From Comamonas halotolerans (GTDB lineage: Bacteria; Pseudomonadota; Gammaproteobacteria; Burkholderiales; Burkholderiaceae_C), in the NCBI RefSeq assembly GCF_030162935.1, contig NZ_JASAUZ010000001.1, positions 1-64,000 of the forward strand: a stretch of 64,000 nucleotides of DNA, written 5' to 3'. The notes below the pieces were generated by a model. The model had not been told where the DNA came from and did not search any database. It saw only the letters and a program-made list of their open reading frames with translations. Shown here in pieces: positions 394 through 16,542 of the stretch. The translations under genes and the position numbers were made by a program. Position 1 is the stretch's first letter; the number at the start of each line of letters is the position of its first letter.

Positions 394-1857
394 ATGTGGG
401 AAGAACTTGAAAACGCTCTGGCATGGTATGCCTCTGCTCCGTCACGCTGGATCAATAGTGCAAAGCAAGACCTGAGTGCGGCAGCCGAATGGATCTGGGT
501 TGTGCTGCAAGGCGACTTTTCGGAAGAGCAGACCACCGCGCAGACCATCACATCAACGGCCATCAGCATGATCCCTTTTGTCGATCAGATCTGCGACGTG
601 CGTGATCTGGTTGCCAACTGCAAAAAAATCAATGATGACAGCAGCAACAAATGGACGTGGGTGGCCTTGGTGCTCACGCTCATTGGTCTGTTCCCCACGC
701 TGGGCAGCCTGGTCAAAGGTTGCTTGAAAATTGTGTTCGCCTATGGCCGCAAAGGCGTGTTGCAAGCAGGCACGCGTGCGCTGGACAGCAATATGTGGCA
801 AGCCACCCAGCCCTTTGTGGAATCGGGCATTGTCAAACTCAACGAGTTTTTAGCCCGCCCCGCTGTGCGACGCAGTCTTGCGGCGCTCAAATGGGACAAC
901 GTATATCTGGAGTTGGCCAAGCAAGTGCGTTCCTTGTCTTCGGCACTGAACGTCGCTGCACTTTTGCGTGTCATGGACGAAGTCATTGCCGTGTTGCGCC
1001 AACTCACCGACCTGATGCAGCGCTTTGGCACAGCCGCCCTCTCTACCCGCGCGGGCCAGTTGGTGCAAATGGTGGGCAATGTGCGCAACAAGGCCAACCA
1101 GGGCCTGCGCCAGGCCCTGGCCCCCGTGCAGGACTGGCTCAACCGACTGGCCCAGCGCCTTGAGGTGGAGCACCGGCTGGGCTACAGAGCCAGTACCAAT
1201 GCCGTCAACCCGCATCACTTCAGCAGGCCATCCCTGAACGCTGAAGTCCAGGCACTGACCCGCAAAAAACCGGAATGGGTGGATATGGCAAAAGCCGGGC
1301 GGCACCCTGGGCTGGATATAGCGCCGCCCCCCACCGCTACACATTCAGACATTAGCGATGCGGCTGCAAAGCCAATGAAATCTGCATTCAACACTTTTAA
1401 CGATATTCAGCCAGATACGCTGCCGCCCGGCACCGTTATCTACCGCGTGCTTGATCCCCAATCCTACGACAACAGCATTTGCTGGATGTCTGCGCAAGAA
1501 TTCAAGCAGCTGCGCAGCAAGGCAGAATGGCGCCGCCGCTTTGCCGTATGGGGCAACTGGAACAGCAATGGCGAGTTTGTGACCTATACCGTGCCGCCCG
1601 GCCCAGGCCTACCTGTATGGCGTGGCAAAACCGCTTCACAGCAATTGCGCAATACCGCAGGCCAAATTGTGCAAGCTGATAACAAAGGCAATAGTTTCTG
1701 GCTCGAAGGTGGCGCCGAGCAATTGGTGCTAGACCCCAAGCACCTCAGCCAGCAACATCTGGGCCCGCGTGAATTTACCGGCTGGGGGTATGACGAGTTT
1801 GGCCAGGAAGCTGGCCTGATTGGCGTGCCCATCCTGCAACACTACTGGAGACCATAA
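394..1857 (+). CDS. Candidate T6SS effector with unassigned C-terminal toxin domain
   Basis: 487 residues, starting 5 bases after vgrG and followed 7 bases later by a probable immunity gene. Residues ~52-72 (SMIPFVDQICDVRDLV) and ~87-118 (hydrophobic, WTWVALVLTLIGLFPTLGSL) resemble the N-terminal membrane-active region of many VgrG/PAAR-linked effectors. The middle is helical and low in landmarks. The last ~145 residues, from PPGTVIYRVLDP to GVPILQHYWRP, form a compact Trp-rich domain with conserved-looking blocks: YRV, CWM, WRRRFAVWGNWNSNGEF, PVWRGKTA, LEGGAEQLVLD. The placing of YR, an N-S segment and a Glu-containing block recalls ADP-ribosyltransferase/NADase-type toxins, but that is inference and no catalytic triad is assigned. 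The 3' end of a second, diverged effector with the same C-terminal tail survives at about 4660-4731, so this toxin type has been exchanged at the locus. Confidence 0.65.
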   Translation: MWEELENALAWYASAPSRWINSAKQDLSAAAEWIWVVLQGDFSEEQTTAQTITSTAISMIPFVDQICDVRDLVANCKKINDDSSNKWTWVALVLTLIGLFPTLGSLVKGCLKIVFAYGRKGVLQAGTRALDSNMWQATQPFVESGIVKLNEFLARPAVRRSLAALKWDNVYLELAKQVRSLSSALNVAALLRVMDEVIAVLRQLTDLMQRFGTAALSTRAGQLVQMVGNVRNKANQGLRQALAPVQDWLNRLAQRLEVEHRLGYRASTNAVNPHHFSRPSLNAEVQALTRKKPEWVDMAKAGRHPGLDIAPPPTATHSDISDAAAKPMKSAFNTFNDIQPDTLPPGTVIYRVLDPQSYDNSICWMSAQEFKQLRSKAEWRRRFAVWGNWNSNGEFVTYTVPPGPGLPVWRGKTASQQLRNTAGQIVQADNKGNSFWLEGGAEQLVLDPKHLSQQHLGPREFTGWGYDEFGQEAGLIGVPILQHYWRP

Positions 1858-1864
1858 GAGCACC

Positions 1865-2812
1865 ATGCCCACGCCTTTGATTCCCCAAGAAATCTACTTG
1901 CTCGAGCGCTATACCTCTCTGGATTACTTTGCCGAGATGCGCGATGCCTGGGCCGCCATGGTGCAAGCCGGTGAAGATGCGCTGGAGGCCTTTATGCGCC
2001 AGTTGCCGCCCGACTACCGCAGCCGCCCGCTTTGGAACCAGCCCGATATTGTCTGGGGCGAGCGCGTGCTGCCCAATTTGCGTTGGACGCTCACAGGGCT
2101 AAATAACGGCTTTATCCAGCTCACTCATGGTGAATGGGATGCCCTGCAGTTTGCTGGCAATGTAAATACCGCCTGCGCTGGTATGAACCGTGACTACAGC
2201 GCAGAATGGATGCCCGAGTCTTTTGCAAAAACTTTTGACGAGCAAGAGACCATTGCTGGCCAAGCTGCTCGCAACATTAGCTTCACCGTCTTGAGCGGTT
2301 GGCTATTTGGCGCACTGTCACATGGCTACCATGCACCCACCCGAGGTCCACTGAATCCGCCTGCCTCATGGCCGGTCTACCGTCTCAACCCCCATGTCCG
2401 CGTACGCACCGACCAAGCCGTGCCGCAAAACGGTATTTATCTGCCTGACGCGGACGACTGCTCTGCCCAGGCCCTGGTCAAAGGCTATGACGCACCCGAG
2501 GCCAATGTGGGGCGCAACCCCGTCACCACGCAGCGCCTGAGAACCGAGCCCACCACCTGGACCTTGGTGGAACGCATTGCCGACGAAGGCGGCGGCACTC
2601 CTGGGCAAGAAGACCTCAGCGCATCAGCACACACACGCCTGCGCCGCGAAGGTGGGCAGCCCTGCCCGCAAGCGGGCTGGTGGTACACCCCTGCGCAAAA
2701 TCACAGCCGCCGTTATTTCAAAGCTGGCGAGCTCATGCCGGTGGTTGAAGGCAGCAGCTACGGAGAAACCTATTGGATTTGGGATCCCAACCAGGAAGCG
2801 CCCAAGCTGTAA
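1865..2812 (+). CDS. Probable cognate T6SS immunity protein (copy A, intact)
   Basis: 315 residues from ATG 1865 (MPTPLIPQEIYLLERY), 7 bases after the effector stop; a longer frame upstream overlaps the effector and is rejected. No signal peptide or TM segment, so a cytoplasmic protector is expected. Residues 1-260 are an N-terminal domain of an Imm71/72-like kind (tentative; to be confirmed by HMM). Residues ~265-315 are a separate module with the pattern CPxxGWWxTPAxxxSRRxF, then GELMPVV and YGETYWIWD. The N-terminal domain recurs in copy B (4739-5575) and the C-terminal module recurs in the DUF3396 gene (3273-4568). Position directly behind the effector makes it the best candidate for its antitoxin; function is inferred from position and architecture only. 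Confidence 0.65.
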   Translation: MPTPLIPQEIYLLERYTSLDYFAEMRDAWAAMVQAGEDALEAFMRQLPPDYRSRPLWNQPDIVWGERVLPNLRWTLTGLNNGFIQLTHGEWDALQFAGNVNTACAGMNRDYSAEWMPESFAKTFDEQETIAGQAARNISFTVLSGWLFGALSHGYHAPTRGPLNPPASWPVYRLNPHVRVRTDQAVPQNGIYLPDADDCSAQALVKGYDAPEANVGRNPVTTQRLRTEPTTWTLVERIADEGGGTPGQEDLSASAHTRLRREGGQPCPQAGWWYTPAQNHSRRYFKAGELMPVVEGSSYGETYWIWDPNQEAPKL

Positions 2813-2859
2813 GGACTGTCTTATTTTTAACGTTCGCAACAGGTGCAGGGTGAACCATT

Positions 2860-3261
2860 GTGAGACTTGCACTTGTTGTTCGCAGTTCTTTTATCTGCTT
2901 TCTTATTTGCACAGGCCATTGCCTAAACCTACTGTCCACCCTACCGAATAAAAAAGGAAGTATTGCAGCAGACTTGATGATTCCAGAGTACCAGCATCAA
3001 CGCCCAGACAAAGCAAACGTTTTTGCTATTGTCGAAATAAAATTCCAGGATGATCGCCAATTCAACAAATACATTGACTTATTAAAGCATGCAGCAAGCG
3101 TTAAAACCACAGAATCCCCCATACGATTTAAAGCAAGACCCGTAAAGGCGGAAGATATGCTCTCACTCTTTAGATACCCTGAAGATATTGCTGTGCATGG
3201 GAAAGAAAATAATAAACAAGCCCCAGAAAATAAAGGCAAAAAAGGTTCAAAGGGCCATTAA
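2860..3261 (+). CDS. Small hypothetical protein in the immunity array
   Basis: 133 residues from a GTG at 2860 with a weak GGTGCAGGG-type ribosome site about 9 bases upstream. The N terminus (residues ~5-25, LVVRSSFICFLICTGHCLNLL) is hydrophobic and could be a signal or anchor, but no clean lipobox is visible. Residues 45-105 look globular (VFAIVEIKFQDDRQFNKYIDLL) and the tail is Lys/Gly-rich. The gene is more AT-rich than its neighbours and ends 11 bases before the DUF3396 immunity gene, suggesting the two were acquired together. I do not recognise the family. It may be a second-compartment immunity protein or accessory; a false start (true start further in) is possible. Confidence 0.5.
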   Translation: MRLALVVRSSFICFLICTGHCLNLLSTLPNKKGSIAADLMIPEYQHQRPDKANVFAIVEIKFQDDRQFNKYIDLLKHAASVKTTESPIRFKARPVKAEDMLSLFRYPEDIAVHGKENNKQAPENKGKKGSKGH

Positions 3262-3272
3262 AGGAAATTACC

Positions 3273-4568
3273 ATGAGTACATCCGAACTGTTTTTAGACC
3301 CTGATGAGATTGAAGAATTCATCCGAGAAACCAAAAAACATCCTCAATGGTTCTACGGCTATGAAGGACAAGAGCTAGGTATCTGTCCTTATATAACTTT
3401 TTATGTCTATCACCCTGATGAGGACTTTACACCTATCGCCAAAGAATTTTTGCTTGTCTGGAAACGCTTTCAAGAGCTAATGGATTTACCTTTTAAAAAA
3501 ATATTCAAAAACAAAACCGAAGTTTGGTTGAATGCCAATGATAAACGTTTACCTACTGATCTGATGGCCGAAGCAGAGCAAGCAAGCAAGAGAGGGTTTG
3601 AAGACTTTTACCTTATGGCCACGGATATGGATTCACCCGATGAATCACCGCGTTGGTCATATGCCGCTAGCATCACCAGCAATCATTACCAAAGGTATAG
3701 TTTTCTCAAACTAGGATTTCGCTATAAATGGTATGCAGCGGGCAATCAGAATATTTGGAAGCAGTTTATCAGGGAATGTGTTACAAGCCTGCAGCCTGAG
3801 CATTGTTATATGGGTTATGAGGTCGGTAATGGTGGGCTTAGTGTCATGACTGGCTATGAGGCCAATGTACTTGAACGCATCTGCGCAGATTATTTTTATG
3901 GAATGGATATCGACCATCCATGGAATATGACTTACCACGGTCATGGACAAGATTATTTCGACCCGAGTCGACTGGGTGCAGGTATCCGTACCCCCACTTG
4001 GTGTTTTATGCTTTCTCCCTTTTGGCAACGCAAGCTGGGTAAAGATGAACAGCAAATTCGTGCGGAGCTAGATGACCCGCGCATACGCATTACGCCAGTT
4101 CCCTATGCAGCCAACGCGCTCAATCCAGAAGGCGCCAATGGTTTGTGGATTGAACTGGGGGACTTGAATCTCTACCCTGTGGAAGATGGCGTACCTGATT
4201 TGCTGGTCAAAGCCAACCGTTTGATACGCCCCATCCGATGCGATGAGCTGTCCCTCTCCACACTGGCTTCCTGGGCTGACGACCCCAACCCACGCTTCGA
4301 ATATGAAGACTCCATACGCTGGATGCGTCGTTTTGATGAAGACAGTGATTGGCCCAATGCACAGATTCGGCATGGTGGCAATCCTTTAGCACCGGACCGA
4401 ATACCCAGCGGCCAGCCCTGCCCGCAAACGGGCTGGTGGTACACACCTGCGCAAAACCACAGCCGCCGTTACTTCAAAGCTGGCGAGCTCATGCCGGTGG
4501 TTGAAGGCAGCAGCTATGGCGAAACCTATTGGATTTGGGACCCCAAACAGGATGCGCCCAAGCTGTAA
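3273..4568 (+). CDS. DUF3396-type T6SS immunity protein with swapped C-terminal module
   Basis: 431 residues; ATG 3273 has a good ribosome site (AAGGAAATTACC). Residues ~40-365 match what I know of the DUF3396 'type VI immunity' family: an early FYVYHP segment, the FLKLGFRYKWY block near residue 150, and a GAGIRTPTWCFMLSPFW block near residue 235. The family's usual end is then followed by residues ~380-431, the same CPxxGWWxTPA / SRRYF / GELMPVV / YGETYWIWD module as in copy A. The DNA for this module is almost identical in both genes and the match runs past the stop codon (AAGGACTGTCTT). The 5' two thirds are AT-rich, the 3' part matches local composition. No matching effector lies next to it, so it looks like an orphan immunity gene protecting against foreign toxins. 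Confidence 0.7.
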   Translation: MSTSELFLDPDEIEEFIRETKKHPQWFYGYEGQELGICPYITFYVYHPDEDFTPIAKEFLLVWKRFQELMDLPFKKIFKNKTEVWLNANDKRLPTDLMAEAEQASKRGFEDFYLMATDMDSPDESPRWSYAASITSNHYQRYSFLKLGFRYKWYAAGNQNIWKQFIRECVTSLQPEHCYMGYEVGNGGLSVMTGYEANVLERICADYFYGMDIDHPWNMTYHGHGQDYFDPSRLGAGIRTPTWCFMLSPFWQRKLGKDEQQIRAELDDPRIRITPVPYAANALNPEGANGLWIELGDLNLYPVEDGVPDLLVKANRLIRPIRCDELSLSTLASWADDPNPRFEYEDSIRWMRRFDEDSDWPNAQIRHGGNPLAPDRIPSGQPCPQTGWWYTPAQNHSRRYFKAGELMPVVEGSSYGETYWIWDPKQDAPKL

Positions 4569-4659
4569 GGACTGTCTTGTTCAGTGGCAGGGTGCGGCCA
4601 TCTGCACAAGGCAATGGCTGCATGTTTGTAGGCTCAGCCGTATGCATCGGTTGACAGTG

Positions 4660-4738
4660 GGCTGCGGCGAGTTTGGTCAGGAGTTTGACCTGATTGGCGT
4701 ACCCATCTTGCAACACCACTGGAGACCTTGAGACCGCC
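4660..4738 (+). pseudogene. Remnant of a second effector gene (last ~22 codons)
   Basis: Reading CGEFGQEFDLIGVPILQHHWRP followed by TGA, this segment matches the last residues of the effector ending at 1857 (DEFGQEAGLIGVPILQHYWRP) with several substitutions. It sits in the same position relative to the next immunity gene as in the intact pair. No upstream portion of the effector survives; only about 90 bases separate it from the DUF3396 gene. It is therefore the scar of a displaced, diverged effector allele, kept because recombination reached only to its end. Confidence 0.75.
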
Positions 4739-5575
4739 ATGCCCACGCCTTTGATTCCCCAAGAAATCTACTTGCTCGAGCGCTATACCTCTGTGGAATA
4801 CTTTGCCGAGATGCGCGATGCCTGGGCCGCCATGGTGCAAGCCGGTGAAGATGCGCTGGACGCCTTTATGCGCCAGTTGCCGCCCGACTACCGCAGCCGC
4901 CCGCTTTGGAACCAGCCCGATATTGTCTGGGGCGAGCGCGTGTTGCCCAATTTGCGCAACACCCTCATTGGCCTGGATAACGGCGTGATTCATCTGTCCC
5001 ATGGAGAATGGCGTGCGCTGCAATACGCGGGAAATATTGAGGCGGCTCGAGCCGGTATGTGGCGTGACCACAGCGCAGAATGGATGCCCCAGCCTTTCGC
5101 AAAAATTTTTAACGTGCAGGAAAGCATCGCTGATAGAAATGCAGGCAATATCAACTTCACCATCTTGAGCGGCTGGCTACTTGGCGCTCTGTCTCATGAC
5201 TACCATGCACCGACCCGAGGCCCACTGAACCCACCTGCCTCATGGCCGGTCTACCATCTCAACCCCCATGTCCGCGTACGCACCGACCAAGCCGTGCCAC
5301 AAAACGGTATTTATCTGCCTGATGCGGACGACTGCTCTGCCCAGGCACTGGTCAAAGGCTATGACGCACCCGAGGCCAATGTGGGGCGCAACCCTGTCAC
5401 CACGCAGCGCCTGAGAACCGAGCCCACCACCTGGACCTTGGTGGAACGCATTGCCAACGAAGGCGGCGGCACTCCAGGGCAAGAAGACCTCAGCGCATCT
5501 GCACACACACGCCTGCGCCGAGAAGGTGGGCAGCCCGGAAACGCGATGGGTGGTACACCCTGCGCAAGACCATAG
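4739..5575 (+). CDS. Second immunity gene copy (copy B), C-terminal module lost by frameshift
   Basis: From ATG 4739 (MPTPLIPQEIYLLERY) this is a paralogue of the 1865-2812 gene. Residues 1-73 and ~150-265 are nearly identical to copy A, also at DNA level, whereas residues ~74-150 differ at many positions (for example RWTLTGLNNGF versus RNTLIGLDNGV). After GGQP the DNA keeps similarity to the CPxxGWW module, but a net loss of 4 bases and then one C in the run before TGCGCAA put it out of frame, giving a short unrelated tail (GNAMGGTPCARP). The N-terminal domain is intact and may still bind a toxin; whether the shortened protein works is unknown. A longer upstream start at 4694 lies in the effector remnant and is rejected. 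Confidence 0.6.
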   Translation: MPTPLIPQEIYLLERYTSVEYFAEMRDAWAAMVQAGEDALDAFMRQLPPDYRSRPLWNQPDIVWGERVLPNLRNTLIGLDNGVIHLSHGEWRALQYAGNIEAARAGMWRDHSAEWMPQPFAKIFNVQESIADRNAGNINFTILSGWLLGALSHDYHAPTRGPLNPPASWPVYHLNPHVRVRTDQAVPQNGIYLPDADDCSAQALVKGYDAPEANVGRNPVTTQRLRTEPTTWTLVERIANEGGGTPGQEDLSASAHTRLRREGGQPGNAMGGTPCARP

Positions 5576-5690: not shown

Positions 5691-5864
5691 CTCTTTTTCT
5701 CAGACTGCTAGAAAGGACAGTTGCTTCTCTTTTCGAGAGGCTACCTGCAGGAGTCGGCATCGCCATAGCGCATTTGACAGAGCAGTCAGCTGGGCTGCGA
5801 TTGCCGTCTTGCAACGCCATTTCCCTGTAGCTGAAAAGTGCTGCAGACCAACACATTTTTTCTT

Positions 5865-6953
5865 ATGCTTTTTGATATCTCTGAGCTTCTTCACCCTATT
5901 ACTGATGCGCAACCAAGCGGGCCAGACATGCTGCTGACCACTGATTTTGATGAAATCCAGTCCGCACGGCAGCAGGAGGACATGTCCTTGGATCAAGGTG
6001 AGTGGGTCACTGACCGCAAAGAGGCTGATTTACCTTTTGTGGTGCAGCGATGCACGCAATTATTGCGTGAAAGCACGAAGGACTTGCGGTTGGCTATCTG
6101 GCTGACAGATGCTGCCGCTAGCCAGGTAGGGCTGCAAGGGCTTACTCAAGGATATGCGCTGCTCAATGCATTACTCACGCGCTACTGGGATAGCGTGCAC
6201 CCGGAGCCTGAGGACGGGGATATGAGTGCCCGTGTCGGCAACATCAGCTGGCTGCTCAAAAGAACCATTGAACAATTGGAGCGCGCCCCTCTTTTGCAGA
6301 CAGACAGCGCAAAAATCAGCATGATCAATTGGCAAACTGCGGTTGCGCTTGACCAGGCTGTTCGACGTAATCCATCAGAAGCCAGCGATATCCTGCATGG
6401 CAAAACTACACTTGAAGAGCTGGAGCGCATAAGGGCTCAAGTGCCCAGTCAGCGTTTACAGGCCCTAGGCAATCAGCTGTCACAGTGCAGAACAGAGGTA
6501 GAGGCTCTCGAAAGTACGCTTGATGCGCAGTTGGGAGATGAAGCACCAAGCTTTACTGCAGTTCGAGAAACTTTGGATCAACTTCAGCATTTGGCCCGTC
6601 GGTGGGGGGCACACGATGACAGTACCACTTCAGATAGCGTCCCCCAGGAAACAGCTGAGGCATCGGTATCCAATCCCCAGCAGCCTGGCAGCCCTGCCGT
6701 AACTGCCACACATGTAATGGCAGGCCCTATTCATACGCGGGCCGATGCCATTCACATGCTTCAGCAGGTCTCTGCTTTTTTTGAACGCACAGAGCCTTCA
6801 AGCCCGGCAGCATACATGGCACAAAAAGCTGCGCGCTGGGCCCAACTCCCCCTGCATGAATGGCTCAAGCATGTAGTAAAAAGCGATGAGGAATTGGCCC
6901 AACTGGAGGAGATGCTTGGCGTTAGTCGACACGCACGCGTCGCGGGAGAATGA
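5865..6953 (+). CDS. tssA: T6SS assembly protein TssA (ImpA N-terminal family)
   Basis: 362 residues from ATG 5865 (MLFDISELLHPITDAQPSGPDM); a longer frame from 5838 is less likely. The N-terminal ImpA domain is clear: PSGPDMLLTTDFDEIQSAR, then DLRLAIWLTDAAASQVGLQGL and LLTRYWDSVHPEPEDGDMSARV, the signature of the family. The C-terminal ~100 residues include a Pro/Ser/Thr-rich linker and a helical tail (AIHMLQQVSAFFERTEPSSPAAYMAQKA) as in short TssA proteins. TssA primes the baseplate and coordinates tail sheath and tube growth. It is the last gene of the plus-strand vgrG-immunity group and converges on the OmpA gene. Confidence 0.9.
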   Translation: MLFDISELLHPITDAQPSGPDMLLTTDFDEIQSARQQEDMSLDQGEWVTDRKEADLPFVVQRCTQLLRESTKDLRLAIWLTDAAASQVGLQGLTQGYALLNALLTRYWDSVHPEPEDGDMSARVGNISWLLKRTIEQLERAPLLQTDSAKISMINWQTAVALDQAVRRNPSEASDILHGKTTLEELERIRAQVPSQRLQALGNQLSQCRTEVEALESTLDAQLGDEAPSFTAVRETLDQLQHLARRWGAHDDSTTSDSVPQETAEASVSNPQQPGSPAVTATHVMAGPIHTRADAIHMLQQVSAFFERTEPSSPAAYMAQKAARWAQLPLHEWLKHVVKSDEELAQLEEMLGVSRHARVAGE

Positions 6954-7030: not shown

Positions 7031-7852
7031 TCAATCGCCTACACGAAACTCAATCCTTCGGTTTTTAGCGCGACCTTCTGCAGTGTCGTTGCTTGCGATG
7101 GGTTGATCCGGGCCAACGCCTGATGTGGAGATCCTGCCGGGATCAATACCTTGATCGACCAGGTAGCCCTTTACTGCATCTGCCCTTGCTTGACTCAACG
7201 TCAAATTCAATCGCCGATCTCCACTGTTGTCAGTGTGGCCAACCAGCGAAAGTTTGCGTTTGCCAATTTCCAACAGTACAGGCACCACTGCATCCAGTAC
7301 CTGACGACCACCTGCGGTAAGTGTTGCACTTCCAGTCTCAAACCCAATCGTACGATCTGCCAACGCCTGCGAAACCAGCTGCCCGCTGTCAACCGCAGGT
7401 ATCTGTAGATTATTGCGAATGCTATATGTTGGGTTAAGGCTGTTTGCCATATCACTCAACAGCTTTTGACGAACTGCTTCATTGGCAACTTCGCCATTGA
7501 TCACGAGTTGCGTGCCATCAACCGTTAGCTGACCCTTATGTATTTGGCGCAATTCCGATGTCAGCAACTTGCTCACATTACTGGACCAGTTTGGCGGAGT
7601 GGAGATAGACCCCACCACCTCGATGCGGTCCACCACATTGGATGCGCCATAGACTTTTCCAAGCGCATTCAGAATTGACACCCGTGTCGCCTCATCAGCC
7701 ACCTGCCCCCCAACAACCACTTGAGAGCCTGTGCCTGTCACTGCATTGTGTATCTGCGCGCCAGACTCCTGTGCCTGAGCCACCCCGAGTACGGCAGACC
7801 CAGCCAGCACCGCACAGCCAATGCCCATCTTCAAAAAAGCTAACTGTTTCAT
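7031..7852 (-). CDS. Periplasmic BON/OmpA-domain protein of the T6SS operon
   Basis: 273 residues with a signal peptide (MKQLAFLKMGIGCAVLAG..., cleavage near AQA 25-27). Residues ~30-150 carry two repeats of a BON-like fold (VVGGQVADEATRVSILNAL and LVINGEVANEAVRQKLLSDM). Residues ~165-273 form an OmpA C-terminal peptidoglycan-binding domain: IGFETGSATL, LVGHTDNSGDRRLNLTLSQARA, and a closing NRRIEFRV. The ATG overlaps the tagF stop in an ATGA, so translation is coupled. In other T6SSs the peptidoglycan anchor is fused to TssL or is TagL; here a free BON-OmpA protein probably gives the TssJLM complex its cell wall contact (inference). Confidence 0.8.
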   Translation of the reverse strand: MKQLAFLKMGIGCAVLAGSAVLGVAQAQESGAQIHNAVTGTGSQVVVGGQVADEATRVSILNALGKVYGASNVVDRIEVVGSISTPPNWSSNVSKLLTSELRQIHKGQLTVDGTQLVINGEVANEAVRQKLLSDMANSLNPTYSIRNNLQIPAVDSGQLVSQALADRTIGFETGSATLTAGGRQVLDAVVPVLLEIGKRKLSLVGHTDNSGDRRLNLTLSQARADAVKGYLVDQGIDPGRISTSGVGPDQPIASNDTAEGRAKNRRIEFRVGD

Positions 7853-8862
7853 CCGATAAACACCTCTTTAAATGCATCTAGCACCACATCCAATGGCAAC
7901 TGAGGCTGTTCCAGATAGCTCACCAGTTTGTAGAGTGCATGGCTGCTATGAATGCTGTCTTCCACCCATTCAGCGTTATCAATATTGATGTTGTGCTCTG
8001 CATAAACTTGCTGGTTCAGGACGCTTTGCAGGCTCTGCGCTGATAGGCCATTGAAGCCGATTACCAAGCGCCGCCGTCCCTGTATTTCTCCAATAAAAAC
8101 CACGAGCTCAAAATCAGCACGTTGCAAAAAGCGAGAAATAAAGTCCAGCCACAAACTGGCAACAAGTGATTCGTTGCTCCTATCCTGAGGCAGTGGAAGT
8201 GTTAAGCCTTTGTCCAATCGCGATACCGCACTGGCCATTACAGGCTGCAACAGCAGTCCTAAGGCGAGAATCAAACGGCGTACAGATACGCTCTGATCCT
8301 CAGGCTGACCAACCACATTAAGCATCTGCTCAAGGTGGAGCAAGTTTCGCTCGCGAACAAAAGTGCCGTAGCTACTTTTTTCTGTACTGACCAATAACTC
8401 AGCTTCATCTGGAACCTGCAAGCTATCAAGCTCCCTGAGCTGCAGCTCTGCTGCTTCTTCTGAATCGGCTTGAATCAGGCGATTGCAGGCGCCATGGCAT
8501 GTTTGCCAGAACGGTTGCAGCAACATGGGGGCATCAATCATGAAGTCCAGTGCTTGCTCGACTTCAAGCGGAGCAGCAAGCACCAAGGGATAGCGTCTTT
8601 TCGCCAAGTCATGACTTGCGGCCAAGAAGCCTGCTATTGCCAGCTTGTTTCTCGAGCCCATGCAAATAAATTGCAGCGGTTCAACACGGTCGTAGATAGC
8701 TTTCCACTGCGCATCCTCAGCCAGCAATTCCATGGACTTGGACAGCCAGTTGTCCAGAAGCTTGAGAATCTGCGGGTTGTAACTACCTTTGACAAAGTCT
8801 CCACGAGCCGGGATTTTTCCGAAGTACGACAATTGCCGTACCTGCAGCGCCGATGTACTCAT
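7849..8862 (-). CDS. tagF: T6SS-associated protein TagF
   Basis: 337 residues. The opening YFGKIPARGDFVKG block is diagnostic of the TagF/BMA_A0400 family, followed by DNWLSKSMELL and the family's FIMDAP-like ALDFMIDAPMLLQPFW region. The N-terminal ~150 residues are the conserved domain; the rest resembles the longer beta-proteobacterial forms. In Pseudomonas aeruginosa TagF is a post-translational repressor of the H1-T6SS acting through Fha1; here no Fha or PpkA/PppA gene is in view. The start codon overlaps the tssM stop (ATGA at 8859-8862) and its own stop overlaps the OmpA start, so three genes are translationally chained. Confidence 0.9.
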   Translation of the reverse strand: MSTSALQVRQLSYFGKIPARGDFVKGSYNPQILKLLDNWLSKSMELLAEDAQWKAIYDRVEPLQFICMGSRNKLAIAGFLAASHDLAKRRYPLVLAAPLEVEQALDFMIDAPMLLQPFWQTCHGACNRLIQADSEEAAELQLRELDSLQVPDEAELLVSTEKSSYGTFVRERNLLHLEQMLNVVGQPEDQSVSVRRLILALGLLLQPVMASAVSRLDKGLTLPLPQDRSNESLVASLWLDFISRFLQRADFELVVFIGEIQGRRRLVIGFNGLSAQSLQSVLNQQVYAEHNINIDNAEWVEDSIHSSHALYKLVSYLEQPQLPLDVVLDAFKEVFIG

Positions 8863-11800
8863 GATCGTTCTCCCATAGCAGCCTCCGAGACCATACGCTC
8901 ACCAGGTACCTCTACAACTGCTTGTGGCAGTACGAGGCTGCGCAAGCGATTGCCTTGAGGTGCATCGTTGTTTTGGGCCGTGGCTTGAGGGCTTTGCACG
9001 ATGCGCAGCAAAACAGAGACTGCGACGCCATCACGACTCCAAGTCATCTCGAAACTTCCGTCCGGTTGACGATTCTTGCTTGCGGTATTCACAAGCCGCT
9101 CCAAACCGAAGTTACCCGGCTCGTTCACCAGTTCAATCGTTCGCCCATCGAAGGCGGTAGCAACCACTCGAGCCCCTGGTGTTCCTTGGGGATGAGGCCA
9201 TACGAAGTCGGACCAGCGCGCAGGCGTATTGCGATAACGCAGTTGCTGTCCGTCAATATCAATGGTGTATTCAGTTACGCCCGGCGATGGGCGCGGCTGT
9301 ATCTGGAACATGGTTTGCTGCTGTGCAGCCGCGCTTGATGCGCCACCAGACAAGGCGGCAACCCAACCACCGAATCCAGTGACCAGCTCTTGCTTCAGAC
9401 GCAAGCCTTCCTCTCCCCACACCCGAGGGGAAAGCAGGTCGCCACGTCGAACAACCAGCGGCCCCAGAGCAGTGGTGACATACTGGCTGATCGCACCTTC
9501 AGGCCCGAAGACCTGGGCAATTTCAGCAGCGGAGGCTTCCACCTTCGCATTCGCATTGAATGGATACTTGGTAGCCAAATTCCGCTGGAAAAGCTGATAG
9601 ACCTGGGCATCCCAGACCTTGTTCAGCTCAACAGAAGCAGGCTTGATAATGACTGCGTATGCCTGCAGGAGCGGACGAACCAGCAAAGGACGCAGTACTT
9701 GGCGTTGCGATGCATCCATACCGGTGAACATCTGTTCGTCCACGAATTTAAGCGAGGCTGCCAATTCTGATCCATTGCCTTCAATTGTCTGTTGCAAGAG
9801 CTGGCGCGAACCTGGGCCCGGATCTCCTTCATTTTTAATCTGATTAAATCGTGTGCGCAGTTTGGACAAGGTTTCCAGATAGCCATTGAGCAGTGTGGTT
9901 CCATCACGATTCATCATGATGCGGGCAACCCCCGCGAACTCACGACCGATAGGCCCCACCGGCAATTGCGCCGTCATACCATCAGCACCTACAGGCATAT
10001 CGACCGCTACTGGAGTGGTTCGATTCCAAAAGCCCTTGATACGGTCAAGAATGCCCGGGCTGACTGCTTTCAGTCCAGCATTCACCAAGGCTGGATTATC
10101 CCAGGAGGTCTGCTCATAAACGGTTTCAAGCAGTTTGCGCAGCGCTGAATTTTGAGAATCTCCAAGGTTATTCATGGCTGTTACCGCCTGATCAAACCCC
10201 GTCATCTGCTGAATCGCCACACCTTGCAAGAACTGCTGCCACTCCTTGCTGTACTCCTGCTTGTACATGCCTACCAAAAGCTTGCGTATCTGCTCTGGAC
10301 TGCCTTCAAGTGTGAGATCGTCATTCGCAGCGACATTAAGCACCCAGTCCGTGCTGCTGCTTTCCTGGGTCGCGGCATCCCGAATTGCCTTGTCTACATA
10401 GCCCTCCCACGCTTCACGGGTGAAAGCGCCTGATATCACATGGCTTCCTGCAATCAGGTCTCCCCCGGAATCCTTGCCCAAAATACGCGAAACCGTCATT
10501 GGCGCATAGCGCGTTGCAGCACGTGCCTTGATCTCACCATAAACCCGTTCACGTGCTGGCATCCCACGCACAACCTTTCTCAGGTTTTCGCGAGTCTGAT
10601 CAACCAGCAAAAGATTGCTGTCTTTCAGCATGGGCCAGGTATTGTCTTTAACCCGGGATAGGTAGAAAGAAAGTGTGCGCTCTGCATCGCGAATCATCTG
10701 GTCTCTCGACATTTCGCCGCGGTTGCCCTCTAACCAGACACGCCAGAAACGCGATAGCTGATCGGTCAGATGTGCAGTTTCAACACGGCGCTTGTCTCCA
10801 AGCATCAAATAAGTCTTAAGCGCGTTGTACACATCCTGGCTGCTGCTCACTGATGAGCCTGCATAGAGTTGTCCAGCTTGAGCAGATTGATCTGCTATCG
10901 GCGTCTTCTCCTGAGAGTTTGCTTCCTTGTTTTGCGCCTGCAGATTTTCGGGATGGGCATTTGCCTGCCGCAAAAACTCCTCAAGATTGGCTGCCACTGG
11001 GGTCAAAAGGATCTGCTGCAAGCCCGCGTAATACTCTGTGAGCAGACGATCTTCCATATAGTTGCCCTGGTACAAGCCCAGCGACAGTGAGATCGGCCGA
11101 TCTTCACGAAACTTGGCGAGCTGTTCTATGCGATCCTGCAAAATACCCAACGCTTCAAACCTGGCTTGTAAACCCGGATTGGCCTGCTGCACTTTTACAG
11201 CTTGCTCCAGATCAGCCTGAACGTTCGCAAGTAGTTGCTGATTGCCCATATAAGACCAAGTCCAGCCGCCCAATAGCAAGCCCAGCACCAGTACAAAACT
11301 GAAAAATGCTGCATAGCGCAAACGTGTTTTTCCTGGATGCGCAAACTGACGCACAGTGCCTTTGTCAGCAAAGATCACTTTGGAAAACAGGTCTCGCAAG
11401 AAAAAACCATTTTGCGATTGCACACCTTGGTCTGCTGTGTCCAGGCTTTGCAGCTGCAGACCAAAACGCTTAGCAATACGCTCCGTCGAAATGCTTTTTA
11501 CCGCCCCCTCTTGCAATGCACTGGTGAAGTAGAAGCCACGCAAAACAGGCCTGTACTGAAAGGGATTGACCTCAAACAAGGTACTCAGAAAAGCTCTGAT
11601 AGCAGGCTTTATGGCTGCGAATTCCAATGGAAAGGCCAGTACTTCCGGTGAGCCTTTGCCACCACGTTGCATCGAAACTTGTGCAACGCTCAGCTCTTTC
11701 AAGCCGGAGTAAAGCTCATCGAAGCGAGCATCGAAATCAGCCAGCGGATCTGACTTTTCTTGCGGGTCATAGGGCAAGGTTGCACCCCACACACGGTCGC

Positions 11801-12638
11801 GCTCTACTTTCTCACTGCCCCCGAAAAATCGCGTGAAACCGGTGATCAGGTCTGCTTTCGTAAACATGACATAGACCGGCGCAAAAATTTCCAAACGTTC
11901 CGTCAGCTCCTGGACCCGTTGTCGCAAATTTTTTGCCAGATTGATCGTCACATCGGGACGGGAGTTCATCAACTCCGGAATACTCACCGTCACCACGATG
12001 CCGTTAATTGGCGCTTTGGGACGATGTCGCTTGAGCAAGTCCAAAAAACCAAACCACTCGCTGCGATCTTCCTCATGTACAGAATATCGACCCGCCGTAT
12101 CCAGCAAGATGCCTTCAGTGGTGAAGAACCAGTCACAGTTACGTGTTCCACCCACGCCTTGAATTACGGCACCACCTTTATCAGCGAATGGAAACTGCAA
12201 GCCCGAGTGGAGTACAGCAGAGCTCTTGCCCGCAGCCGGATTGCCGATGATCATGTACCAAGGCAGCTCATACAGCGCACGGCTGCCGCTCAGATGTCCC
12301 AACTTGGAAGTCTTGATGGTCTTTATGGCCTGTGACAATCTGCCACGCAATTCGTCCAATTCAGCCTTGCGAGCAGGATCGCCGCTGCTGATAAAGCTAT
12401 TGTTTTCAGCTTGCGTCTCCAAGGCTCCACTGAGCTTCTTTTCCGCGGTTCGTGCGCGTAGCCTGCGCACTAGCCACACAACGCCCCACAGAGCCAGAAT
12501 CCCCCCGAGAACTAGCAAAGCGTAGAGCAGCCCGACCTCAAGTGTGTGTGCTCCCAACAGTAAAAAAGCGGCCAAAGCCACGACGCCAATAACCGACAGC
12601 GTACGCGGATTAATCAGGAAGCGGAGAAGTCGACGCAT
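8859..12638 (-). CDS. tssM: T6SS membrane core protein TssM (IcmF)
   Basis: 1259 residues, a usual size for TssM. Two TM helices at ~14-30 and ~36-57, a cytoplasmic GTPase-like domain with Walker A GNPAAGKS at 132-139, a third TM near residue 450 (FSFVLVLGLLLGGWTW), and a long periplasmic part with the IcmF-related and C-terminal DUF1215/DUF1305-like blocks (for example RYRNTPARWSDFVWPH and GARVVATAFDGRTIEL near the end). TssM spans the envelope with TssJ and TssL and anchors the baseplate. TssJ and TssL are not next to it here. The gene lies 53 bases downstream of the ketosynthase-like gene in the same operon. Confidence 0.95.
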   Translation of the reverse strand: MRRLLRFLINPRTLSVIGVVALAAFLLLGAHTLEVGLLYALLVLGGILALWGVVWLVRRLRARTAEKKLSGALETQAENNSFISSGDPARKAELDELRGRLSQAIKTIKTSKLGHLSGSRALYELPWYMIIGNPAAGKSSAVLHSGLQFPFADKGGAVIQGVGGTRNCDWFFTTEGILLDTAGRYSVHEEDRSEWFGFLDLLKRHRPKAPINGIVVTVSIPELMNSRPDVTINLAKNLRQRVQELTERLEIFAPVYVMFTKADLITGFTRFFGGSEKVERDRVWGATLPYDPQEKSDPLADFDARFDELYSGLKELSVAQVSMQRGGKGSPEVLAFPLEFAAIKPAIRAFLSTLFEVNPFQYRPVLRGFYFTSALQEGAVKSISTERIAKRFGLQLQSLDTADQGVQSQNGFFLRDLFSKVIFADKGTVRQFAHPGKTRLRYAAFFSFVLVLGLLLGGWTWSYMGNQQLLANVQADLEQAVKVQQANPGLQARFEALGILQDRIEQLAKFREDRPISLSLGLYQGNYMEDRLLTEYYAGLQQILLTPVAANLEEFLRQANAHPENLQAQNKEANSQEKTPIADQSAQAGQLYAGSSVSSSQDVYNALKTYLMLGDKRRVETAHLTDQLSRFWRVWLEGNRGEMSRDQMIRDAERTLSFYLSRVKDNTWPMLKDSNLLLVDQTRENLRKVVRGMPARERVYGEIKARAATRYAPMTVSRILGKDSGGDLIAGSHVISGAFTREAWEGYVDKAIRDAATQESSSTDWVLNVAANDDLTLEGSPEQIRKLLVGMYKQEYSKEWQQFLQGVAIQQMTGFDQAVTAMNNLGDSQNSALRKLLETVYEQTSWDNPALVNAGLKAVSPGILDRIKGFWNRTTPVAVDMPVGADGMTAQLPVGPIGREFAGVARIMMNRDGTTLLNGYLETLSKLRTRFNQIKNEGDPGPGSRQLLQQTIEGNGSELAASLKFVDEQMFTGMDASQRQVLRPLLVRPLLQAYAVIIKPASVELNKVWDAQVYQLFQRNLATKYPFNANAKVEASAAEIAQVFGPEGAISQYVTTALGPLVVRRGDLLSPRVWGEEGLRLKQELVTGFGGWVAALSGGASSAAAQQQTMFQIQPRPSPGVTEYTIDIDGQQLRYRNTPARWSDFVWPHPQGTPGARVVATAFDGRTIELVNEPGNFGLERLVNTASKNRQPDGSFEMTWSRDGVAVSVLLRIVQSPQATAQNNDAPQGNRLRSLVLPQAVVEVPGERMVSEAAMGERS

Positions 12639-12691: not shown

Positions 12692-14221
12692 TCAGGCTGC
12701 TTCTGTGCCCGTATCTGAACCCCAGCCTGGCGGCATCAGCAAGGCTGCTGCACGCCATGGTTCTGAAGCGAGCGCTAGCGCTAGCGCGGCGCGCTGTTCC
12801 TGAACTGCGTATTCGGCCGCCAAAATCAGGCTAGTCAGCGCACCCACTGCGCCTGTATTTCCATTAGCAATACCTACAGGGAAGCAGTCGCTCTCCAGCG
12901 ACAGGTCTGGGAAATGCTGCCCCAGCAGCAGGGCAATACCCTTCAAGGGAGCTTCCCGGTGATCGGCGTCACAAAAGAGCCTGCCAATATCTGCAGAGAT
13001 CACCCCGCAGCCTTCAAGCATCGGGACGGTCATTGTTTCAATTGCTTGACTACTGTTTGCAGCAATGGAGGCCAGCTTGGCATCAGCAACCACCGCCAGC
13101 TCCCGGTGCTTAGGTGACGCCGCCGGGACGCCTTTGGCAACCTGATGGCGCAGAAATGTCACCGCTGCTGCTCCTTCTCCCACTATCCTTCCATTACGGT
13201 ACTTGGGCCCATAAAGCTGGCCACTGACCGCCAATCTATCTACTTCAGATTGGTCAATTTCAGAATGTGCAGCTGCTAGCAACCAAATCTCACCACCACC
13301 AAACACATCGCTTTCGGAGGGTTGAAACACAGCATCTTTGGCCTCAAGCAACGCGGAGGGCCAAGGGAAGTTCACATCTGACTGCGGTGAATAATGCCGA
13401 ACATCAAAACGCAGTGCTGGAGCACTTCGCTTCAGCCAATGTTGAGCCCAGCTTTGCAAATGCTGCAAATCACCTGCATCCCAACCAGCAGCTGTTGCCA
13501 GACGAACTTGTAGAGCAGGGAAAACTGCTTTAGCCTTTGATGAGCTGTTTTGCCGTGCATGCAGCAGGATGTCACGCTCAACTGCTTCAGCGCACTCTGC
13601 AAGCACACTGGCAAGCAGACGCATCTCACGAGCTTTGGATGCAGTCAGCTGAGCAACCCATGCGCGTCCTGATGGAAGCTCTGCATCCAGTTCCAATCCA
13701 TCCCACCATTGCAAAGCGTCAATATCGTCAAGCTCTGCAACCCGGGCTGCCATGACAGGGAATCCCTGGTCGTTACATAATTCTCCATCCAGATCAGGGC
13801 GCACCTCTTCCATGCACGCCTGGAGCAACTCCTGGGTTTGCCCTGCAGGCATTTTGACGCTTGATCCCATGACAAAGAGTTGCATCGGCGTGGAGTGTTT
13901 TTGCCTATCTTCCACCTCCCGTGGAGTGACAGATCCCGCGCCAGAAGCTTCTCCCGATTGAGCAAGAGCCGGTGCTTGCAGAACATGTCCCAGTACATGC
14001 TTGAGCACAACGTAGCCTGCAATGAGCATGAGGGGAACGCCCAACAAACCCAGTGCTAGATCACCAGTGGAAGGCTCATGCGAGCGCCAATACCAAACGG
14101 CCCCAACAACTCCCCAGATCACCAATACCAAGACTGACCAGCTAGCAAAGGTCTTCAAGCGACTTCGCACGAACCACTCCTTTTCATTGTTGGATCCATG
14201 CTGGCGAGCATTTCTCGCCAA
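12692..14221 (-). CDS. T6SS operon membrane protein with ketosynthase-like domain
   Basis: 509 residues from a TTG start 3 bases after the PAAR stop, so probably coupled to it. Two TM helices near residues 28-46 and 55-75, then a linker and a large cytoplasmic domain. The C-terminal half has features of the thiolase/ketoacyl-synthase fold: NGRIVGEGAAAVTFL (compare the GxxPGEGAAAxxL of ketosynthases), CDADHREAPLKG, and PVGIANGNTGAVGALTSLILA (compare GxTGAAxG). I do not see the active-site Cys context (DTACSS) nor the His pair, so it looks like a non-catalytic member. Similar genes occur beside tssM in some betaproteobacteria as far as I recall, but no role is established. It is neither TssL nor TssK. 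Confidence 0.6.
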   Translation of the reverse strand: MARNARQHGSNNEKEWFVRSRLKTFASWSVLVLVIWGVVGAVWYWRSHEPSTGDLALGLLGVPLMLIAGYVVLKHVLGHVLQAPALAQSGEASGAGSVTPREVEDRQKHSTPMQLFVMGSSVKMPAGQTQELLQACMEEVRPDLDGELCNDQGFPVMAARVAELDDIDALQWWDGLELDAELPSGRAWVAQLTASKAREMRLLASVLAECAEAVERDILLHARQNSSSKAKAVFPALQVRLATAAGWDAGDLQHLQSWAQHWLKRSAPALRFDVRHYSPQSDVNFPWPSALLEAKDAVFQPSESDVFGGGEIWLLAAAHSEIDQSEVDRLAVSGQLYGPKYRNGRIVGEGAAAVTFLRHQVAKGVPAASPKHRELAVVADAKLASIAANSSQAIETMTVPMLEGCGVISADIGRLFCDADHREAPLKGIALLLGQHFPDLSLESDCFPVGIANGNTGAVGALTSLILAAEYAVQEQRAALALALASEPWRAAALLMPPGWGSDTGTEAA

Positions 14222-14224
14222 AGC

Positions 14225-14494
14225 TCAAGCATTTGAAGCATCAACTTGCGAAGACAGCAAGGTTGCACCACAAGCCGTCAGATCACCATGTCGGGCCACC
14301 ATGCGACCATCAATAACCATGCTTGAAGATCCGGTCGCAATCGTTGTCGTGCCACCGTGACCTTTGCGGGGACAAGTCACGGTATCGCCGACACAGGCTA
14401 CTGGCTTGCCATCGATCAACGTTACAGAGGACCCCTTCAGCACCACCCCTCCGTGGCTGGTTTTGTCTCCTACAACAATGAATGGCTTAGTCAT
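14225..14494 (-). CDS. PAAR-domain T6SS spike tip protein
   Basis: 89 residues, essentially a single PAAR domain: IVVGDKTSHGGVVLKGSSVTLIDG, ACVGDTVTCPRKGHGGTTTI and ARHGDLTACGATLL. The spaced His and Cys residues fit the zinc site at the tip of the cone. Stand-alone PAAR proteins sharpen the VgrG spike and may bind effectors non-covalently. It is the first gene of the minus-strand T6SS operon, with a ribosome site AAAGAGTAGAG just upstream of the ATG. There is no C-terminal toxin extension. Confidence 0.92.
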   Translation of the reverse strand: MTKPFIVVGDKTSHGGVVLKGSSVTLIDGKPVACVGDTVTCPRKGHGGTTTIATGSSSMVIDGRMVARHGDLTACGATLLSSQVDASNA

Positions 14495-14856: not shown

Positions 14857-15738
14857 CTACCGTGCTGGGAGCCTGAAACCTGGCTTTCGATATTCGACAT
14901 GCCCGTAGTCTTTGAACGACCAATTTCCGCCCCAAACAAGACCCACAGACTGAGCCACCTCTCCATAAAGGCGATAGCCTTCCATTGCCCAAGGGTCTTT
15001 TTCAGAAATCACAATGCGTCCATTCCGTAAAAATGCGCTATCAGCAGCCAAGCCATATTGGTGATAACTCCTGTTAGCGCCTGCTTGCGTGACATGCCCA
15101 CCTAATGCAGCCAGCTTGGCTTGGCGTTCTGGACTTCGATAGCCTTCAAGCAAGGCCATTTCATAGCCATGTTGCTCACGCATGATCTTGTAGACCAAAA
15201 GTAGCCGACGCGTGAACTCACCATCCAAAGCCTCCCAATTTCTACTGGCCTCACGCACCAACGGTATCGCCATTTCGATTTCTGGCGCTTCAAATATCTC
15301 TGGGGGCAAGGCAGGAGGAGGAACCAACTGCTCCCCCTGTAGTAGAAGCGCAACTCTAGAATCTGGATCTCTTGATGCATCTTCAAAAAATGCCAGATTA
15401 TGCTTCCCCAACCACACCCCTAGTACTGCTGGAACAGCAATTAAAAATACCCCCCCCAGCCAAAGCCAGCGGTTCAAAGACATATGCCTCAACGTCTTCC
15501 AAAGTGATTGCGTGACTCCATGGCTTGCTGCATTGGAAGATCGTCCGATTGCATTAAATAACTTTTTAACCGCTAAGGACGCCAGATGCCACGCATGTTT
15601 TCCCAGGCTAGTTACACGATTACGCACTTCAGGCAAGAAAATGCACGCAGCAATTATTACCATCAGTAAAAAATAGAAAATAGTTACAACAATTAACATC
15701 TGGTATTCACAGAAACTCAGAAAGTTGATCTTTCGCAA
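14857..15738 (-). CDS. Membrane-anchored M15/VanY-type peptidase, TagX-like
   Basis: Up to 293 residues from a TTG at 15738; an ATG at 15699 (MLIVVTIFYFLL) gives 280 and fits the first TM equally well; neither has a strong ribosome site. TM segments near residues 14-34 and ~95-112. The C-terminal ~150 residues are a D,D/L,D-peptidase of family M15: GYRSPERQAKLAAL, then SYHQYGLAADSAF (the HxxGxAxD zinc ligands) and GGNWSFKDYGHVEY (third ligand His). In Acinetobacter the VanY-type endopeptidase TagX opens peptidoglycan for T6SS assembly; place and architecture make this a likely functional counterpart (inference). It could instead be a general wall-remodelling enzyme. Confidence 0.75.
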   Translation of the reverse strand: MRKINFLSFCEYQMLIVVTIFYFLLMVIIAACIFLPEVRNRVTSLGKHAWHLASLAVKKLFNAIGRSSNAASHGVTQSLWKTLRHMSLNRWLWLGGVFLIAVPAVLGVWLGKHNLAFFEDASRDPDSRVALLLQGEQLVPPPALPPEIFEAPEIEMAIPLVREASRNWEALDGEFTRRLLLVYKIMREQHGYEMALLEGYRSPERQAKLAALGGHVTQAGANRSYHQYGLAADSAFLRNGRIVISEKDPWAMEGYRLYGEVAQSVGLVWGGNWSFKDYGHVEYRKPGFRLPAR

Positions 15739-15876: not shown

Positions 15877-16542
15877 ATGTCAACACACAATGATGGCCTC
15901 CAACACAGTGGCAAACCTAGCTTTTTCAGTGCTGAACAGACAGACACCACTGCTGCACAAGAAAATACCCGGGTACTTGCTCACCTGGAAGGGCAGCCAC
16001 ATTCGCGCCTAAAAAGCAAAACCATAGTGAAAGCACTTGCTGCAGCACTGCTTATCGGAGGCGTTGCTGTATTTGCATGGAAACCATCAAGCAAATACGA
16101 GCGTAGCGATCTTGCAAAAAATTCCACCATAGCTGTACCCGCCCAAAGCGAACAGCAACCTGCCCAGACTCCAGCCTCTGCGCCATTAATAGAGCCTGCC
16201 CGGATATTGCAGGACAGCAGCATTGAAGCAAGTATTAGTGATACGGACGCCATGAATGAGGGGGGTCACAGCATCTCGAACCCTGCAAGCCATATCACTT
16301 CAGCAGCGCTTGCTTCAGCCGCCCCAGTTGAAATTGGCTCCTCGGCAGCCAAAGCGAAAAAGTCTGCAGCAAGTCCCAAAGTGCATGCAAAGGCTGAGAG
16401 AGCAGCAAGCACCCAACGCGCTTCAGCATCTAAGCGACGAGTACCGAATCCCAAAGCGACCTCCAACTCAGACGCTGAAGTTCTTGCCACATTGCTCGAA
16501 CGTCGAGATCCACAGGACATTGCCGCAGTACCTAAAGAATAG
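15877..16542 (+). CDS. Hypothetical single-TM protein with Ala/Ser/Lys-rich periplasmic tail
   Basis: 221 residues from ATG 15877, divergent from the M15 peptidase gene. A short cytoplasmic N terminus is followed by one TM segment at ~50-67 (IVKALAAALLIGGVAVFAW) and a low-complexity tail rich in Ala, Ser, Pro and Lys. The last 20 residues (SDAEVLATLLERRDPQDI) look like a small helical motif. It resembles the layout of type II-oriented wall-spanning accessory proteins, but I do not recognise the family. It marks the right end of the T6SS island. Coding status is supported by length, a typical start and the absence of competing frames. Confidence 0.55.
   Translation: MSTHNDGLQHSGKPSFFSAEQTDTTAAQENTRVLAHLEGQPHSRLKSKTIVKALAAALLIGGVAVFAWKPSSKYERSDLAKNSTIAVPAQSEQQPAQTPASAPLIEPARILQDSSIEASISDTDAMNEGGHSISNPASHITSAALASAAPVEIGSSAAKAKKSAASPKVHAKAERAASTQRASASKRRVPNPKATSNSDAEVLATLLERRDPQDIAAVPKE

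Follow-up and report, generated by a model that had tools for sequence, protein, structure and literature searches.

The analysed window comprises 64,000 nucleotides of Comamonas halotolerans, from the start of contig NZ_JASAUZ010000001.1, and carries part of a type VI secretion system (T6SS). The minus-strand order is TagX-like peptidase, PAAR, tagZ/tsmK-family gene, TssM, TagF and TagN; beyond them, TssA is encoded on the plus strand. The TagX-like protein (14857–15738, minus strand) is a peptidoglycan peptidase of the M15 type (PF13539, E 8.2e-14) that carries a hydrophobic segment at its N-terminus and has a 36% match in the Acinetobacter baumannii locus L117. The PAAR spike-tip protein (14225–14494, minus strand; PF05488, E 3.4e-28) lies directly upstream of the tagZ/tsmK-family gene and TssM (IcmF; 8859–12638, minus strand; TIGR03348, E 1.2e-207) directly downstream of it. 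This is the position between PAAR and TssM that a first-pass annotation had assigned to the gene. The operon continues with TagF (7849–8862, minus strand; TIGR03373, E 7e-29) and an OmpA/BON protein (7031–7852, minus strand; PF00691, E 3.2e-21), which we take to be TagN from the gene order; TssA follows at 5838–6953 (plus strand; ImpA_N, PF06812, E 5.5e-34).

The gene under study, an asaB homologue, is contained in a minus-strand open reading frame (ORF) at 12692–14221, the sole long one of this stretch. The frame is opened by a TTG at 14221, three bases past the stop codon of the PAAR gene. Its real start is likely the GTG at 14170 and not this TTG, because AAAAGGAG lies 6 nt 5' of the GTG and two homologues of the same genus start at the equivalent position. 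Read from the GTG, the gene (14170–12692, minus strand) has 492 codons plus a stop and encodes two N-terminal hydrophobic helices and a pseudo-ketosynthase domain, which is probably cytoplasmic.

Other T6SS genes are found at the start of a second contig (C34) of the same genome. There, family searches identified TssJ and TssK, and Pfam the TPR part of a TPR lipoprotein. A VgrG fragment, TssL, TssB, TssC, Hcp, TssE, TssF, TssG and ClpV are presumably encoded as well, as judged by sequence features and gene order. The families of TssM, TssK and TssJ each matched once in the genome, the TssM of the window being the only one detected, which points to a single T6SS cut by the assembly. The break probably falls at a repeated vgrG, since VgrG-like sequence occurs at both contig starts: the second contig opens inside a VgrG-like frame, and the first ORF of the window has a weak match to DUF2345 (VgrG tail; E 0.0052, below the cut-off).

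Two closely alike ORFs (1820–2812 and 4694–5575), both lacking a Pfam match, lie on either side of a gene (3273–4568) with a TsiV-type immunity domain (PF11876, E 9.6e-11); the region 1820–5575 has the appearance of an effector/immunity cassette that was duplicated behind VgrG. ORF 394–1857 (487 aa, no Pfam match) overlaps the next ORF and occupies the usual site of a VgrG-linked effector. At the other end of the operon, a divergent ORF (15877–16542, 221 aa) has a low-complexity stretch rich in Ala, Pro, Ser and Lys and what seems to be a single hydrophobic segment. It is kept beside TagX in the loci L005 (39%) and L062 (33%) and takes the place of TagY in Burkholderia T6SS-1 clusters, a likeness by position alone. 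Compared with the same two loci, the pseudo-ketosynthase has diverged furthest among the six proteins encoded on the minus strand (42–50% identity within the genus); the values for TagX, PAAR, TssM, TagF and TagN are 70–83%.

Fold, membrane hairpin and catalytic residues

No Pfam or NCBIfam family matched the protein at E ≤ 1, and an assignment as β-ketoacyl synthase (KS) is therefore absent from those libraries; the Pfam model of the T6SS adaptor Tla3 (PF11394) gave no match at E ≤ 1 either. The AlphaFold2 model, computed with 16 relatives (pLDDT 79.3, pTM 0.74), has two long helices, 2–28 and 35–64, followed by a mixed α/β KS fold at about 92–483. Both helices are hydrophobic by sequence and are predicted transmembrane (TM) segments, in line with the two TM helices noticed at first sight. 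A thiolase/KS-type part had also been claimed, with a Foldseek comparison named as the check. Foldseek matched the model to KS and chain-length-factor structures from E 8.6e-12 downwards, the best match being a KS/chain-length factor, and VIA-align gave a Z of 28.2 for FabF of Pseudomonas aeruginosa (330 residues, 3.9 Å). The motifs quoted in support of the claim align with the GEGAG strand and the second-His region of KS enzymes. In a profile-profile comparison with hhalign, the family matched 11 diverse true KS domains with E 6.5e-9 and a probability of 95.8% over 325 columns. Given these Foldseek, VIA-align and hhalign values, the KS fold of the window protein is far above chance; the outcome that would have refuted the claim, a predicted structure lacking a thiolase fold, did not occur.

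The outcome of the profile comparisons varied with the reference set. The first true-KS profile contained truncated polyketide fragments and gave E-values of 8.5e-9 over 152 columns and 1.1e-7 over 109; it was rebuilt from 10 and then from 11 complete domains. With the set of 10 sequences, mostly FabF, the match had a probability of 38.8% and an E-value of 3.2e-4. Searches of PDB sequence profiles yielded weak KS matches, the best being 0.0036 (profile A3) and 0.13 (profile A6); for profile A6, two chance matches to ribosomal protein L4 outrank the KS match. PHROGs gave a single chance-level match (E 0.51). Although the fold is like that of FabF and the KS/chain-length-factor enzymes, the identity to KS II (FabF-type) chains is 7–14% among those listed by VIA-align, and the window protein differs from these enzymes in having an extra membrane hairpin and in lacking the catalytic residues.

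The hairpin was studied in a member profile consisting of the 30 sequences left by an 80% identity cut. Its residues W19, W26 and P46 are invariant in this set. The net charge is positive before TM1 in 30/30 members and after TM2 in 18/30, and the loop is neutral on average. Because positive charges precede TM1 and often follow TM2, a cytoplasmic KS domain is favoured by the sequences. The sections of Kandolo et al. (PMC10564176) cited here argue for the same location in A. baumannii, whereas a periplasmic domain was assumed in the corresponding part of a 2019 survey of Acinetobacter (PMC6838775).

In the profile alignment, which places single residues with less certainty than coordinates would, the nucleophilic Cys of KS enzymes aligns to H259 of the window protein, the first catalytic His falls in a gap beside C400/D401, and the second His aligns to I434, in a column that is variable among the 30 members. 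The nucleophile column contains Cys in 2 of the 30 non-redundant members, and at each of the six Cys positions of the window protein Cys is present in at most 43% of them; the earlier remark that no catalytic Cys is visible is thus borne out. The signature of an active β-ketoacyl synthase (catalytic Cys plus two His, or Lys) was absent from the window protein in this alignment. The catalytic triad is not kept and, as far as aligned residues can tell, the protein is a pseudo-KS.

Family membership, distribution and gene linkage

The protein is a further member of a family that is already described. Spiewak et al. (2019; PMC6612558) gave the name TagZ to asaB homologues of β- and γ-proteobacteria, listing Ralstonia, Rubrivivax, Xanthomonas, Achromobacter and some Burkholderia; in the part of the paper drawn on, these have TM segments near the N-terminus, a paar gene immediately upstream and a setting in Burkholderia-type T6SS-1 clusters with TagX, and the word "ketoacyl" does not occur in the paper, so that their KS nature goes unmentioned. 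Kandolo et al. (2023) renamed AsaB of A. baumannii (A1S_1301) TsmK and described a pseudo-ketoacyl-synthase fold with two TM helices (PMC10564176). The accessible part of their text terms TsmK specific to Acinetobacter and contains neither "Spiewak" nor "TagZ"; the Acinetobacter survey of 2019 had, in the part cited, connected the Acinetobacter protein with TagZ (PMC6838775).

In order to compare the window protein with TsmK, the A. baumannii T6SS was reached via the window TssM (44% identity, 90% coverage). Directly upstream of TssM in this locus lies a 470-aa ORF (L117, 16354–17763), whose length and TM layout are those given by Kandolo et al. An HMM of the family from which Acinetobacter was left out detects this protein with 101.1 bits (E 2.2e-31 against the ORFs of L117), and hhalign aligns it with the family at a probability of 98.8% (E 7.6e-17, 299 columns). 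The window protein alone matches it with a tblastn E-value of 3e-5 and 22% identity over a short stretch. Common to both proteins are the two N-terminal TM helices, predicted here by model, hydrophobicity and charge pattern, the KS fold deprived of its catalytic residues, the gene position directly upstream of TssM, and a cluster that also contains TagX, TagF and TagN. They differ in that PAAR and TagX are upstream of the window gene but elsewhere within the A. baumannii cluster, and in that TsmK belongs to a T6SS without TssJ and with a GS-linker in TssM, whereas the window genome has TssJ and its TssM lacks the linker patterns. With the TagZ proteins of PMC6612558, the window protein shares the N-terminal TM segments, the paar gene immediately upstream and the T6SS-1 cluster with TagX, TagF and TagN; this link is one of description, gene order and shared AsaB homology, and not of comparison with the sequences named there.

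By homology, fold and gene order, the window protein belongs to the wider AsaB/TagZ family. By the BLAST cut-off of 2023 (E < 1e-20, at least 60% coverage; PMC10564176), which it does not reach in our far smaller search, it would not be called TsmK. What sets Acinetobacter apart at that threshold is similarity, and neither the fold nor the gene position. As a side observation, record NZ_CP104448.1, which carries the T6SS core cluster of A. baumannii, is filed as a plasmid of 4.09 Mb; because it is chromosome-sized, it is probably a mislabelled chromosome.

With the window protein as query, matches were found in 3/61 genomes, its own included. A three-row profile gave matches in 14/399 genomes of the order and an 18-row profile in 23/369 genomes of the class. 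Four of the latter, again including the query genome, were full length with the N-terminal part; the other 19 were not counted as TagZ, 18 of them having the KS part only and one (G446) a 146-aa frame of the N-terminal part. The 16 loci of a scan with named organisms belong to Acidovorax (1), Massilia/Telluria (7), Dechloromonas (2), Azonexus (2), Aromatoleum (1) and unclassified MAGs (3). A marker protein of Acinetobacter stayed below the cut-off in all 369 class genomes. The searches lend no support to an origin in phages or plasmids: viral contigs contained no relative of the window protein, plasmids contained none with it or the L018 protein as query, and the only two plasmid matches of the L014 protein were at chance level (E 0.5) and fell within genes for DNA ligase.

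Linkage to T6SS genes, whose failure elsewhere would have spoken against the first-pass annotation, was found throughout: a T6SS gene lies beside the family gene in 35/35 distinct loci, the window included. TssM is directly downstream in 27/35 and PAAR upstream in 27/35; TagX was found in 25/35 and TssK upstream in 3/35. These counts are based on tblastn with the window proteins and flanks of up to 1.5–1.6 kb, several being shorter than 1.5 kb; duplicates (L002, L003, L006, L010, L013, L014, L034) and second pieces (L024–L028, L030, L031, L033) were left out. The 35 loci come from fewer genomes, as G092 and G303 give two each. Both of these possess two TagZ paralogues, of which one adjoins TssM and the other TssK (L011/L029 in G092, L032/L073 in G303).

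The gene accompanies only some of the systems. In the genus, TssM occurs in 13/53 genomes at 15 places, 3 of which are TagZ places. Two of the 12 others (G798, G799) were left out; at the remaining 10, in 9 genomes, stretches of 11.4–12 kb contained no TagZ, and their TssM is 21–30% identical to that of the window. Among the 37 genomes common to both searches, TssM occurs in 8 and TagZ in 3, and each of these 3 is also one of the 8. Genome G009 has three TssM places, with TagZ beside one only. In Paraburkholderia largidicola, whose T6SS is of the same subtype (TssM 62% identical to the window's), TagX is followed directly by TssM, and no family gene was found in the 33.6 kb read; the protein may therefore be dispensable in some relatives or be located elsewhere.

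Role in the secretion machine and relation to soluble proteins

The first-pass annotation had suggested that the fold is reused as a structural or cargo-docking part of the secretion machine. The structural reading is in accord with what others have shown for the homologue of A. baumannii: according to the cited portion of PMC10564176, TsmK is essential, deletion of tsmK abolishes Hcp secretion, and the protein binds TssL, TssM, TagX and TssK and stabilises TssL-TssM. Cargo docking finds some support in homology to soluble pseudo-KS proteins, some of which are encoded in effector clusters. The observations made here are that the protein belongs to the family, has the KS fold, has lost the catalytic residues and is linked to T6SS genes, and that TssJ is present. 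Going further, we consider it fairly probable that the membrane-anchored dead KS of the TagZ/TsmK family serves one T6SS subtype as a scaffold for assembly and docking, which couples TssL/TssM to baseplate and spike alongside TssJ. The N-terminal hairpin would reside in the inner membrane with TssL and TssM, as co-purifications by others in A. baumannii suggest. The cytoplasmic KS-fold domain would bind the baseplate, in analogy to the TssK contact shown by others in that species, and probably also the PAAR-tipped spike, as the gene order and the homology to soluble pseudo-KS proteins suggest. In this manner the scaffold may steady the membrane complex TssL-TssM and couple it to the baseplate, working in addition to TssJ and not in its place. 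We read the protein as such an inner-membrane adaptor because of its hairpin and charge pattern, the published contacts with TssL, TssM and TssK, the copies adjacent to TssK and the pairing with PAAR. It counts against the scaffold that TssM is not adjacent in 8/35 loci; moreover, at 22% identity to TsmK the function of the window protein may differ.

The best surviving alternative, which we regard as rather unlikely, is an effector or spike adaptor: a membrane-tethered, Tla3-like loader for the PAAR-VgrG spike that would act on the membrane complex only indirectly. The frequent PAAR gene directly upstream fits this idea, all the more as it is kept in five Massilia/Telluria loci without TssM beside the gene (L063, L065, L066, L069, L071). 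So do the closest profile relatives. The strongest non-TagZ matches of the class search are open frames of about 340–430 aa with no added TM part, in which the Cys and His motifs of KS enzymes, searched as simple patterns, gave no match. In the 9 of these loci whose flanks were scanned, the neighbour is DUF2169 twice, a PAAR-like toxin once and a VgrG-type protein once (L040); the other neighbours are AHH-type nuclease domains (3), a HEAT-repeat protein (1) and DUF2931 (1). The set fits the "thiolase-like" genes that are reported, in the part of PMC11883445 cited, from VgrG-DUF2169-PIPY clusters (synteny type A), and the "thiolase-like" PA0098 of P. aeruginosa in the cited part of PMC7970981; it is tied to them by the neighbours in some loci, and the likeness to PA0098 is one of description, not of compared sequences. 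Like the window protein, these proteins are KS-like, have lost the catalytic motifs and occur in T6SS clusters; unlike it, they have no membrane anchor and stand beside effector-type genes, whereas the window protein has a hydrophobic hairpin and PAAR and TssM as neighbours. Tla3 (PF11394), a T6SS effector adaptor, has a KS-like fold by Foldseek too: its crystal structure (8yz3) is at rank 20 of the fold matches with E 9.5e-10, albeit with a poor rmsd of 10.2 Å over the whole alignment. The Tla3 profile, however, matches TagZ only weakly in the C-terminal part (E 3.7e-4, probability 36%; 0.4% for true KS and 1.9% for soluble pseudo-KS). Further points against a mere spike adaptor are the loss of the whole Hcp secretion upon tsmK deletion, whereas Tla3 is effector-specific and Hcp secretion does not require it (PMC6560169), the frequency of TssM directly downstream, and the PAAR gene found in A. 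baumannii, which is not adjacent to tsmK.

Very improbable is that the protein compensates for an absent TssJ, as proposed in the cited part of PMC10564176 from the absence of TssJ in Acinetobacter, to which the TssM GS-linker is tied there. The TssJ family PF12790 was above its cut-off in 19/19 TagZ-bearing genomes, comprising all those from the window-protein and order searches and the full-length ones of the class search. Some of them may hold several T6SSs, as G009 does, and therefore this count alone does not prove that both proteins belong to one system. The case is clear in three genomes: that of the window has one TssM, one TssK and one TssJ, G033 has one TssM and one TssJ, and in Dechloromonas denitrificans (L072) TssJ lies about 9 kb from TagZ in the same cluster. 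The GS-linker patterns, present in the TssM of A. baumannii, are missing in that of the window; three of 11 other distinct TssM tails (L070, L072, L074) match at least one of them, L072 being the cluster with TssJ. A value in the cited part of the same paper, TssJ in 77.1% of the non-Acinetobacter genomes with TsmK-like sequences (PMC10564176), already pointed away from a replacement. Because TssJ is present in TagZ genomes, including those with one TssM and the L072 cluster, standing in for TssJ is not the general role of TagZ, and for the window lineage this role is rejected. The result corrects the published inference: the family is neither specific to Acinetobacter nor a general replacement of TssJ, and its role has to be sought elsewhere.

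That the protein is an active condensing enzyme, by which a lipid or lipoprotein would be modified for the T6SS, is rejected as the least credible reading, since the equivalents of the KS Cys and of both His are not kept, even though the KS fold is complete and D401 and H404 (492-aa numbering) are present in 28/30 and 19/30 members.

The proposed assembly and docking scaffold bears on how the T6SS membrane complex recruits the baseplate and the loaded spike. Should the pseudo-KS prove to be the coupling piece, structure work would gain a defined target. The presence of TssJ together with TagZ and the kinship of TagZ with the soluble pseudo-KS proteins go beyond the papers cited; among the matches listed from title and abstract starts and in open-licence literature, which includes few subscription papers, no link of TagZ/TsmK to soluble pseudo-KS proteins or Tla3 was found.

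This kinship is indicated by profiles and by a tree. TagZ matches the soluble pseudo-KS set with an hhalign E-value of 9.2e-22 over 342 columns (6.8e-20 to 7.1e-18 for 8-member subsamples), compared with 6.5e-9 for true KS; the soluble set matches true KS with 6.6e-16 and for this reason stands between the two. A FastTree phylogeny of 59 sequences and 343 columns, which was rooted at the midpoint and says nothing on KS monophyly, separates 48 T6SS pseudo-KS from 11 true KS with a support of 0.994. On both counts, TagZ is closer in sequence to a soluble, apparently dead KS family than to FabF. A common origin is likely but no more than that, because a shared loss of catalysis could mimic relatedness at such divergence; if true, it would, together with the fold shared by Tla3, connect effector loading to the assembly of the membrane complex. 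A more far-reaching scenario, which we put forward as possible though doubtful, is that T6SSs have repeatedly used one dead KS fold as a spike-handling domain: a soluble PAAR/PIPY-VgrG loader would have gained the hairpin and become TagZ/TsmK, which receives the PAAR-tipped spike and the baseplate, and the loss of TssJ in Acinetobacter would be a later, separate event. Within the tree, the soluble set is grouped (0.925), and the TagZ clade alone has a support of 0.534. The protein of L040 (1072–2148), soluble, TagZ-like and adjoining the VgrG-type gene, groups with TagZ (0.87) and is a possible intermediate between the soluble pseudo-KS proteins and TagZ.
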